A model generated the notes under the pieces. It saw only the letters and a program-made list of their open reading frames with translations, was not told the DNA's origin and made no database searches. DNA of 64,000 nucleotides from Phycisphaerales bacterium (GTDB lineage: Bacteria > Planctomycetota > Phycisphaerae > Phycisphaerales > UBA1924): the NCBI GenBank assembly GCA_013360675.1, contig JABWBB010000001.1, positions 1 to 64,000 of the forward strand. Direction: 5' to 3'. A program made the position numbers and the translations under genes. Below are positions 36,096 through 39,092 of this stretch, one piece after another (the first letter of the stretch is position 1; each line of letters opens with the position of its first letter).

Positions 36096-36281
36096 GCGAA
36101 CGCCCCGTATTGGGGGTGTACTGACGGCACCAAACGCTTGGGATTCCATGGCCTGGAGGGACTGCCTTGGCAGTTAACCTCAAGAATCACAAGCCCATAG
36201 CGCGGCAGTTCGTCAGCCGGTGCATATGAAAATGCATCAACGAAAATATTTATCCACAACCATGATAATGCCTTGAACTCA

Positions 36282-36298
36282 GGGGGGGGGGGGGGGGG
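36282..36298 (+). repeat. Run of 17 G just upstream of a start codon
   Basis: A homopolymer of 17 G (36282-36298), then AG and TCTACTCTT before ATG 36310. Its 3' end overlaps the expected Shine-Dalgarno position. The preceding ~70 bp (36225-36280) is AT-rich for this genome and has a perfect TTATCCACA at 36250-36258. Slipped-strand changes in such tracts are a known phase-variation mechanism in other bacteria. No gene lies in 36096-36309. Confidence 0.8.
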
Positions 36299-36309
36299 AG
36301 TCTACTCTT

Positions 36310-37422
36310 ATGTGGGTACGCCTCCTCTGTGCAGTGATCGTCCTCGGGTTTATCACTGCTGGGCAAGCAGCCGGCCAGGAGAAGACCTTCGACGCCTGGT
36401 GGCGGGGGATGGTCGAAACCGCAAAGGACATCCCATGCGGCGACCGTCCCTTCCGTGTGAAATGGCGCGTGGTGGACGCGCGGTCTCCCTCGCCGCAGGA
36501 AATCGATGCGCTGCGACGGAGCATCGCAGGCCACCCCGAGCACCCCGACCGGACGCTCCTCGCGCAACTCGAGAACATCACAGCCGGCAAGCCATTCTGG
36601 GTTGAGAAGCAGTTCTGGATCCGCGGGTCGCAGTTCAGGCGGAGCGACAATGACTCCAGAGGAGATGGGCATGGGAACGACTGCGCCCTGGGCGACGGCG
36701 TAGCCTGGTCACTCAACGCGCGCGAGTTGGTCGTCATGAGTGATACTAAACTGGCGCCGGGTTATCCGCTCGATGCTGAACTGAGCATCCTCAAGCCCGA
36801 GTTCGGCACACTCATGACTGGGGGGCTTTCCTACTTCCGGCGTTATCTCGATCACGTGAGGCCCGCGCTCACGTCCGACACCACGTGGGATGCGAGCGGG
36901 ACCGCCGCGTTTGATGGGGACGTCTTTGAGGTTCGCATCAAGGGCACATGGAACCCGGGCGAAGGCTGGGGCACTGTGGAAGAGGCTTCCTCGCACGTTC
37001 CCGCGTCGCCGACGCCGAACGGATGGATGTTTCGCAGCGCACATTGGGTTCCCAACGCGATCCTGGGGCGTCCCGCGGCGAAGGCGGTCACGCAGTTCGA
37101 CGCCTCTGGTAAGCCCGAACGTCGCATGGAACTGATCGAGTACGAACCGATCGATGATGCCCGCTTCGAGCAGATCATCGCGCTCCCGAAGTTGAACGAG
37201 CCGGATCCAATCCGTGGGGCGTTGACGTTTTCATCCGTCACCGACTATCGGCCCGGCAAACCCCTGCAAAGACTCATCAATCCTGAAGGACAAGAGACTA
37301 CTCGCGTTCTGCCCGACCCGCTGGATCGTCCATCCCGTAACTGGTTGCGGTACACCGGGTGGTTGACCGCTGGCGCGATTGTGGTTGTGTTGGTTTTCAT
37401 CCGTCTTAAACGAGGCAAGTAA
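36310..37422 (+). CDS. Exported, C-terminally anchored protein of unknown function
   Basis: A 370-residue protein: signal peptide MWVRLLCAVIVLGFITAGQAAG, a large periplasmic/extracellular part, and a C-terminal helix WLTAGAIVVVLVFIRLKRGK with positive stop-transfer residues, so it is anchored with the body outside. Only two Cys are in the body (IPCGDRP and NDCALGD). The middle alternates strands such as LVVMSDTKLAPGYPL and VFEVRIKGTWNPG, recalling LolA-like or DUF2092 secreted planctomycete proteins, without a clear match. It is the first gene of a low-GC three-gene cassette (31 G/C of 60 at 36301-36360) and starts 11 bp after a 17-G tract. The next gene is 16 bp on. Confidence 0.75.
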   Translation: MWVRLLCAVIVLGFITAGQAAGQEKTFDAWWRGMVETAKDIPCGDRPFRVKWRVVDARSPSPQEIDALRRSIAGHPEHPDRTLLAQLENITAGKPFWVEKQFWIRGSQFRRSDNDSRGDGHGNDCALGDGVAWSLNARELVVMSDTKLAPGYPLDAELSILKPEFGTLMTGGLSYFRRYLDHVRPALTSDTTWDASGTAAFDGDVFEVRIKGTWNPGEGWGTVEEASSHVPASPTPNGWMFRSAHWVPNAILGRPAAKAVTQFDASGKPERRMELIEYEPIDDARFEQIIALPKLNEPDPIRGALTFSSVTDYRPGKPLQRLINPEGQETTRVLPDPLDRPSRNWLRYTGWLTAGAIVVVLVFIRLKRGK

Positions 37423-37438
37423 GAAAAAGGATCATCCG

Positions 37439-37807
37439 ATGAGTACGAAAGGCCGTGGATTCATTGTGATCATGACACTCGTATCAGCATCTTCGGCCGC
37501 GATCAGCGGAACGGTGTGCTGGATTGATGGCAAGGCCAAGTGCTGCGACAAGGTGAGCAATCCTCCGAACCTGACTCGTATGTGTGGGGGTGGGCTCTGT
37601 GCCGATCGAGTCGTATTGAATCCCTCGATCGACTTTGCAATCAGCGTACCTCCACCGGAGGGACAGAAGACGACTCAGTCGCTCCCGCTTGAGACGTGCG
37701 AGTATTGGTTCCGTTACTGTCAAGGAGACAACTGCTTAGAGGTACCCAGTTCTTCGGTGTATTACTGTTCACCATCTCAATCAAGCGGGGATAGCTGCGC
37801 AGAATAA
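37439..37807 (+). CDS. Small secreted cysteine-rich protein
   Basis: A 122-residue protein with a signal peptide (GFIVIMTLVSASSAA, cleavage near AAIS) and a mature part holding 10 cysteines (one CC pair, others near CGGGLC, ETCEYWFRYC, DNCLEV, VYYC and DSC). An even Cys number in a short secreted protein suggests several disulfides. I recognise no family. The ATG at 37439 has AAGG about 8 bases upstream. It lies 7 bp before the MauE-pseudopilin fusion gene. In methylamine operons MauE and MauD are needed to fold the disulfide-rich small subunit of methylamine dehydrogenase, so this protein may be a substrate of the neighbour (inference). Confidence 0.75.
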   Translation: MSTKGRGFIVIMTLVSASSAAISGTVCWIDGKAKCCDKVSNPPNLTRMCGGGLCADRVVLNPSIDFAISVPPPEGQKTTQSLPLETCEYWFRYCQGDNCLEVPSSSVYYCSPSQSSGDSCAE

Positions 37808-37814
37808 CCGGGAC

Positions 37815-39092
37815 ATGATCACGATGAACCGGTGGCACGTCATCGCAACAGGATTATGCGGCATTGCGGTATCAGTGGTTGCTCTGTCTGGCTTGAGCAA
37901 GCTTCTTGATCTGGGGGAGTTCGCCAGGCAGATTCGTGCTTGGGGCATATTTTCAGAGCCGCTGGTCGCTGCCCTTGTTGCACTGGTTCCCGCCATTGAG
38001 ACGGGCACGGCGGGATTGTGGCTGATCGGAATCGCGCGTCGTCGGGTCACATTGGTGCTGATCGGTATGGTTGTATCGATGACACTTGTGATGGCTGCTG
38101 TTTGGCTTTTCCATGAACCACCGAGCAACTGCGGCTGCTTTGGTGTGTTGGGTGAATGGCTGCGCGTCTCGACGGGATTCCCAGCCGCGATGACTCGAAA
38201 CGCCGCCCTTCTCGGCGCACTCACAATGGGCCTCATCGTGAAGGACCGACGGTCCTGCCCTAAGCATGCCGAGATTTCATTGAATGCCGGAGTATTACGC
38301 ACTACGAGGGGTGGCTGCTCCAATGAGGGCCACGGATTCACGCTCATCGAGACGGTGCTGGTGATCGCGCTGGTGGGGGTGCTGATTGTGCTGCTAACCC
38401 CGTCCCTACGGGGTGTTCGAAGGGCGGGCGACGACGCTGGCGCCGCGGCGCACCTGCGCTCGCACGCCTCGGTCTTCGCCATGTACGCGAGTGATCACAA
38501 GCAACTCCTCCCCAACTTCTTCAACCCCAAGGCCGACGTGTTCATTCTCCGCTGCCCGTCGCGCGGCATCGCGGTCCCCGTGCGCTACTTCGAGGTGTCG
38601 TATTCGTGGGGCGTCGGGCTCGCCGACGGGTACTACGAAGGGAACCCCGCGCACCCGAGTTTTTATTCACCTGCTGCCCGGGGCGGGCGATGGTCAGGCG
38701 GGTTTCTTTCTTCCTATCAATACGCCTGCGTCTTTCTCGCCGACCCCGACTACTGGGATCCGCGCCGATCGCGGCTCGAGCCCGAGCAGCTCCGCGCCGT
38801 GCGCATCGATGAGGTTCTCTTTCCCTCCTCCAAGACCCTGCACGTCAACCGTGATCGTGTGGCGAGGGATGGCGATGACGCGCGACGCAGCGGGCGAGAG
38901 TTACCCCTTCTGCCCGATCTGCAGGCGTCGTTCATCGACGGGCACGCCGAGATTGTGAAGGGTGATCGCCAGAACCGGGACTCCATGGGCTGCTGGCGCC
39001 GTGGCAGCACGGGGCCATGGGGCATCCATACCTTTCCAAACCCGCATCTGACCCACACCCTGTCAGGTGCCCACGGACGCGACATCCGATAG
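37815..39092 (+). CDS. MauE/DoxX-like membrane protein fused to a prepilin-type pseudopilin
   Basis: 425 residues in two unlike halves. Residues 1-145 have four hydrophobic helices and the MauE/DoxX-type NCGCFG motif (105-110), as in membrane proteins that pass reducing equivalents for periplasmic disulfide chemistry. Residues ~172-425 are a type II/IV pseudopilin: GHGFTLIETVLVIALVGVLIVLL with cleavage expected after Gly174 and Glu179 at position +5, then a globular part with ASFIDGHAEIV (the H-x9-DG-like ending common in planctomycetes). The frame is continuous with no ATG or GTG between the halves; only a TTG near 38280 could restart. GC rises sharply at the joint (31/60 at 38041-38100 versus 46/60 at 38401-38460). 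A recent gene fusion is inferred. Confidence 0.85.
   Translation: MITMNRWHVIATGLCGIAVSVVALSGLSKLLDLGEFARQIRAWGIFSEPLVAALVALVPAIETGTAGLWLIGIARRRVTLVLIGMVVSMTLVMAAVWLFHEPPSNCGCFGVLGEWLRVSTGFPAAMTRNAALLGALTMGLIVKDRRSCPKHAEISLNAGVLRTTRGGCSNEGHGFTLIETVLVIALVGVLIVLLTPSLRGVRRAGDDAGAAAHLRSHASVFAMYASDHKQLLPNFFNPKADVFILRCPSRGIAVPVRYFEVSYSWGVGLADGYYEGNPAHPSFYSPAARGGRWSGGFLSSYQYACVFLADPDYWDPRRSRLEPEQLRAVRIDEVLFPSSKTLHVNRDRVARDGDDARRSGRELPLLPDLQASFIDGHAEIVKGDRQNRDSMGCWRRGSTGPWGIHTFPNPHLTHTLSGAHGRDIR

Follow-up and report, generated by a model that had tools for sequence, protein, structure and literature searches.

A three-gene cassette containing a MauE-pseudopilin fusion

The window (the whole stretch of DNA analysed, 64,000 nucleotides) contains at 37815-39092 a frame, gene C, that is open for 425 codons and ends in TAG; the five remaining frames across the same interval have 7-15 stops each. 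A sequence-only reading of this DNA had described the frame as an uninterrupted fusion of a MauE/DoxX-like redox module and a pseudopilin, with NCGCFG at residues 105-110 and GHGFTLIE at residues 172-179. The open frame and the profile matches given below agree with this description, and both motifs lie exactly where it placed them. It missed genes A and B, which precede gene C, and their poly-G promoter. The order of the cassette is A-B-C (Table 1), and its flanks are an SNF2 helicase gene and, on the opposite strand, a glycosyltransferase gene, which limit the cassette to three genes.

Table 1. Features of the cassette and its promoter, with positions in the window.
Feature	Position	Strand	Basis
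-35-like box TTGAAC	36273..36278	+	sequence; TTGACA in many relatives
Poly-G tract, 17 nt, promoter spacer, candidate phase-variation tract	36282..36298	+	sequence, relatives
-10-like box GAGTCT, 6 nt before gene A ATG	36298..36303	+	inferred; TANNNT-N6-ATG in relatives
Alternative -10-like box TACTCT	36303-36308	+	sequence
Gene A, 370 aa, signal peptide, C-terminal TM helix 344-369, basic tail	36310..37422	+	sequence, model
Gene B, 122 aa, signal peptide, 10 Cys in mature part	37439..37807	+	sequence, alignment
Gene C, MauE::pseudopilin fusion, 425 aa	37815..39092	+	sequence, Pfam, alignment, AlphaFold2
MauE/DoxX-like four-helix module, residues 1-142	37815..38240	+	Pfam, alignment, AlphaFold2
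NCGCFG, residues 105-110, CxC on predicted periplasmic side	38127..38144	+	alignment, charge counts
Linker, hydrophilic and basic, residues 143-171, predicted cytoplasmic	38241..38327	+	model, charge counts
Prepilin peptidase recognition GHG/FTLIE, residues 172-179, predicted cut Gly174/Phe175	38328..38351	+	NCBIfam, alignment
Mature pseudopilin, residues 175-425	38337..39089	+	alignment, model

Domains, fold and predicted topology of gene C

Residues 13-141 of gene C matched Pfam MauE (PF07291) at 3e-16, with 60.3 bits as compared with a gathering score of 27; paralogues in the same genome scored 76.7 and 28.6 bits. The prepilin signal (residues 173-194) was above the cut-off of NCBIfam TIGR02532 and gave a weak match in Pfam (PF07963, 0.013), under the cut-off. 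Against the GspG equivalog TIGR01710 gene C reached 19.3 bits of the 88.85 needed, and it was far under the cut-off of the NCBIfam ComGC profile.

An AlphaFold2 model of gene C, made from a 28-sequence alignment, had a mean pLDDT of 82.7 and reproduced the four-helix module and pilin helix of the sequence-only reading. The MauE part had helices at 6-31, 48-71, 75-99 and 109-141; residues 157-173 formed a disordered linker, and the long helix of the pilin spanned 177-227. Foldseek with the entire fusion as query returned no significant match. In a VIA structure comparison, which hardly covered the pilin part, residues 4-145 gave NACHO/TMEM35A as the best structural match (Z 12.5, rmsd 2.3, 119 residues).

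Mean net charges were +1.1 for the N-terminus, -1.0 for loop 1-2, +1.9 for loop 2-3, +0.1 for the CxC loop and +3.3 for the linker. By the positive-inside rule, the CxC is predicted to be periplasmic and the linker and prepilin leader cytoplasmic. Prepilin peptidases cut on the cytoplasmic side, and with the linker and leader in this predicted location a cut after Gly174 would part MauE from the pilin, which fits the cleavage previously proposed. The source genome encodes a prepilin peptidase (contig C8) and many secretion ATPases. Gene C resembles the T2S/T4P pseudopilins (TIGR02532; GspG, ComGC) in its prepilin signal, Glu5, long N-terminal helix and genomic peptidase and ATPases, but differs from them in having a polytopic redox module and linker in place of a short leader.

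The fusion recurs in one family of genomes

A search of 60 relatives yielded many fusions, of which 33 fused relatives were aligned, and ~17 further fusions turned up with gene A. MauE and pilin were joined in one frame in >30 other frames from >20 genera of the host family, so that the two domains seen in one chain at this locus have numerous homologues of the same layout. Named hosts include Phycisphaerales and Phycisphaerae metagenome genomes and Phycisphaeraceae bacterium H1_PLA1. The source genome itself has five fusion copies: besides gene C, three more one-frame fusions (one on C58, two on C81) and a fifth on C2, in which both Pfam domains exceed their cut-offs.

Lys29, Glu62, Cys108 and Glu179 (Glu5 of the mature pilin) were invariant in 28 aligned fusions, and Cys106 was absent from one of them. 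An HTxxGxxGRD motif at the pilin C-terminus was kept among gene C relatives. Two apparent frameshifts, in the pilin of L061 and in the MauE part of L057 (9207-9701), are sequencing errors or mark decaying copies. The cassette was also seen in two metagenome genomes labelled Cyanobacteria, Leptolyngbya (L094, L097), and these labels look wrong.

In 14 of the 33 fused relatives the linker has no in-frame ATG, GTG or TTG (L040, L043, L044, L049, L053, L056, L058, L060, L063, L064, L067, L069, L071 and L075), and these relatives must therefore make one chain. This rules out an internal start as a general rule. In the window, the one close internal start in the linker is a TTG that lies in frame at 38280 and precedes Gly174 by 18 codons. 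The possible start near 38280 raised in the sequence-only reading thus has a codon to match, and an extra internal-start product is possible for gene C, but the notion does not extend to those relatives.

That an assembly artefact or a chance read-through joined two genes is scarcely credible. The genome is a draft and relatives have split versions, but >30 fused frames occur in other genomes or paralogues, some of them with start-free linkers, and for the family a sequencing join can be rejected.

Fused and split halves

In many relatives the halves are two adjoining genes, of which the second has a short prepilin leader of the usual kind. Among 96 cassettes, found via the fusion or gene A, 46 were fused, 37 had adjacent genes and 13 lacked MauE; about 40 of these 96 loci were selected by their match to the fused protein, which inflates the share of fusions. 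The halves are not, as the sequence-only reading had allowed that they might be, always separate in close relatives.

In a tree of both halves, split rows fell in several places, requiring at least six changes, three of them forced by well-supported branches. On a pilin tree of 93 rows the fused state must have changed at least eight times. In the tree of both halves the deep divergent clade was all fused and the main clade was mixed, indicating an old or recurrent fusion in the family and not a recent import into the source genome. The divergent fused clade comprises L046, L047, L076, L077 and the second copy of L041; a neighbouring gene of ~300 aa fails the gene A profile there, and most of its members have a Cys-rich gene of ~90-150 aa.

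The GC counts at the joint (31/60 at 38041-38100 and 46/60 at 38401-38460) were exact as first reported. The view that they mark the joining of an imported redox gene to a native pilin gene in this genome is not supported: the MauE and pilin halves of 33 relatives differed in GC in either direction or showed no step, and fused and split rows are interleaved on the trees. The pilin-MauE link is often one of adjacency only, and judged by these gene orders the fusion per se is dispensable. The repeated switching between a single chain and two neighbouring genes offers a natural experiment on the importance of physical linkage.

Elsewhere in the phylum MauE stands alone or is joined to thioredoxin- or rhodanese-like domains in the proteins that we read by eye. 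The MauE-thioredoxin fusions among them (L084, L089) have no cleavage site, and the residue at -1 of the prepilin signal is Ala rather than Gly in 9 of 28 aligned fusions. Both points would suit a chain that is never cut, in which the pilin helix is a fifth transmembrane anchor that keeps the globular domain at the membrane and MauE oxidises B there. We regard this as quite unlikely, since all 28 sequences combine Gly (19) or Ala (9) at -1 with Glu5, and split relatives have their ordinary short leaders at this position.

Genes A and B, and the linkage of MauE to a Cys-rich gene

Genes A and B belong to families missing from Pfam and NCBIfam: gene A had no match in either library and gene B none above cut-off. 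The AlphaFold2 model of gene A (pLDDT 89.9) was LolA/LolB/RseB-like over residues ~25-315, with Foldseek matches from 4e-7 (prob 1.0) and VIA matches of Z up to 10.6 over 220 residues (rmsd 6.8). Gene A is accordingly predicted to share the fold of the LolA/LolB/RseB superfamily. It differs from LolA/LolB and RseB/MucB in its C-terminal membrane anchor, its place in a pilin cassette and the lack of a sequence family match. Its homologues lie upstream of most fused or split pairs; among 301 sampled genomes of the order, 52 from the host family and one from another family had them.

The kin of gene B are secreted proteins of ~125 residues that keep about nine Cys columns in 38 aligned sequences, three of these columns being present in 37-38 of 38. 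A Cys-rich partner had been envisaged for the fusion, and gene B adjoins it. A frame with at least six Cys between A and MauE was present in 82 of 83 MauE cassettes as compared with 3 of 13 without MauE (Fisher 3e-10, ignoring kinship). The sole MauE locus without such a frame was L163, and one of the three MauE-less loci with a Cys-rich frame (L123) is doubtful. In the ten remaining MauE-less loci 26-130 nt separate A from the start of the pilin, so that B and MauE are absent together; the distance in the doubtful L123 is 178 nt. The pilin tree held three independent contrasts in MauE presence on well-supported branches, too few for significance.

Of the 87 MauE modules scored, 85 had the CxC, and a truncated frame accounts for one of the exceptions. 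One CxC cysteine is lost in L063 and both are lost in L208, the C2 copy, and a Cys-rich gene is present beside each. A perfect link between the CxC and the Cys-rich gene is thereby broken. At L208 (G000:C2:19500-27500) the Cys-rich gene upstream of the fusion is small and encodes a secreted protein with 11 Cys. A further source-genome operon, L209 (G000:C73:205000-213500, ~211 kb on the contig that holds the window), encodes a pilin, a 13-Cys secreted protein, a TM-anchored protein and a separate MauE, in another order.

No DsbB or VKOR match was found in the source genome, where control searches were positive, which removes both as candidates for a general oxidase; a DsbA-like protein is present. 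MauE has a part in methylamine dehydrogenase maturation, where disulfide formation by MauE has been speculated (PMC7794033). That role, the lack of DsbB and VKOR and the DsbA-like domains together point to MauE as a putative dedicated oxidase of B.

A poly-G tract in the predicted promoter of gene A

Upstream of gene A the sequence reads TTGAAC-TCA-G17-AGTCT-ACTCTT-ATG, in which the final G overlaps the -10-like box, the tract length comes from a draft assembly and the -35- and -10-like boxes are imperfect. All other G/C runs in the 64-kb window are of 7 at most. The source genome has six poly-G tracts of at least 10 G, of which five lie upstream of such pilin operons. The sixth (L210, G000:C76:23500-31000, tract at ~1881) is the sole one without a pilin operon; judged by eye, it precedes an IS200-type transposase gene and has no clear promoter boxes. 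The L208 fusion stands behind a TTGACA-TA-G18 promoter, and the L209 operon has a poly-G13 promoter.

A G/C run of at least 7 occurred within 260 bp upstream of A in 48 of 92 cassettes as compared with 206 of 3894 background stretches. The strict arrangement TTGACA..poly-G/C..TANNNT was found at 27 of the 48 tracts upstream of A and at 15 of 231 other tracts. In these 27 promoters the spacers were mostly 15-21, and the ATG often followed 6-7 nt past the -10 box. L065 and L120 differ in tract length (G9 vs G6) within upstream DNA that is 92% identical; L073 and L139 have similar boxes without a tract. The arrangement resembles that of slipped-strand phase variation and suggests phase-variable expression of the cassette. 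If so, it would point to phase variation of a planctomycete pilin-type surface system, on which we found no paper in the literature searched.

Proposed function of the cassette

We put at about even the chance that the product of the cassette is a disulfide-rich protein, displayed or exported via a pseudopilus, with MauE as the oxidase of B. Slippage in the poly-G spacer would alter the -35/-10 distance and so act as an on/off switch for the cassette in individual cells. B would be exported by Sec with its cysteines reduced, and C would be inserted as one polytopic chain. The periplasmic CxC of MauE would then oxidise B, directly or via a thioredoxin-fold carrier, and pass the electrons to the membrane. 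Cleavage after Gly174 on the cytoplasmic side by prepilin peptidase would free the mature pilin at the place where MauE works, the fusion having ensured equal numbers and a common place for the two until then. The pilin would enter a pseudopilus by which folded B is carried or pushed outward, and the anchored, LolA-like A may serve B or the pilin in the periplasm as a chaperone or receptor. If this is true, gene C would be the first described prepilin, in the literature and libraries searched, with a complete redox membrane module as its leader, and disulfide formation would be tied to pseudopilus biogenesis. The broader picture, of a hitherto undescribed multi-copy, phase-variable surface system of Phycisphaerales in which each copy carries a different disulfide-locked Cys-rich protein, a dedicated oxidase as removable leader of the pseudopilin that displays or expels this protein, and a LolA-like tethered periplasmic receptor, is tentative and somewhat on the doubtful side.

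Several observations weigh against the reading of MauE as oxidase with a pseudopilus: two modules without an intact CxC stand beside a Cys-rich gene, relatives with split halves dispense with the fusion, one MauE locus has no Cys-rich frame and three MauE-less loci (one doubtful) have one, and the cassette appears to encode no oxidising thioredoxin partner. The main rival to an oxidase coupled to a pseudopilus is that MauE serves the pilin as assembly chaperone or membrane scaffold and is not a thiol oxidase, the fusion holding both together until cleavage. This is consistent with the two copies that lack an intact CxC and with the match of the module to NACHO (TMEM35A), a human receptor-assembly factor to which it is alike in its DoxX-like predicted fold, although NACHO is eukaryotic and has no pilin fusion. 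We consider a chaperone unlikely given the near-universal CxC and the company that MauE keeps with the Cys-rich gene, ten pilins of the same family lacking both.

B might instead be a Cys-rich metal binder that MauE/DoxX protects or loads, a role suggested for DoxX in bufferin clusters; DoxX genes have been found with Cys-rich bufferin precursors (PMC12452194). Such metal or ligand handling seems very unlikely: no MNIO-type gene was recognised in the cassette or adjoining it, and the strong linkage is instead to a pilin and a LolA-like protein.

The module is like MauE (PF07291) of the methylamine utilisation (mau) cluster in Pfam homology above cut-off, four helices and a CxC, and in both cases MauE lies beside a small secreted Cys-rich protein. 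Unlike in the mau cluster, MauE is here fused to a prepilin, no thioredoxin-like (MauD-like) or MauA-like gene was recognised in the cassette, Pfam does not match gene B to MauA, and A and the pilin have no mau counterpart. By these comparisons the module resembles MauE, but what surrounds it is not a mau cluster. Known kinds exist for every component; the one-chain arrangement, previously put forward as undescribed, was indeed absent from the literature and libraries searched, as was its combination with A, B and a tract promoter.

For the promoter, the nearest likeness is to Bordetella fim2, fim3 and fimX, pilus subunit genes whose promoters contain a C-stretch that alters transcription (PMC1891110). 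A promoter with a homopolymeric G/C tract, ahead of pilus-type genes, is common to both, but the Bordetella fimbriae are unrelated and their promoters activator-dependent, whereas here the tract lies between the -35- and -10-like boxes and switching is inferred. Phase-variable pilins may be wider than the A-B-C cassette. Contig 1 of genome G036 has 69 poly-G tracts of at least 10, several of them at most 300 bp ahead of pilin genes that stand alone; among the matches listed, 7 of 12 linked a tract to a pilin by eye.
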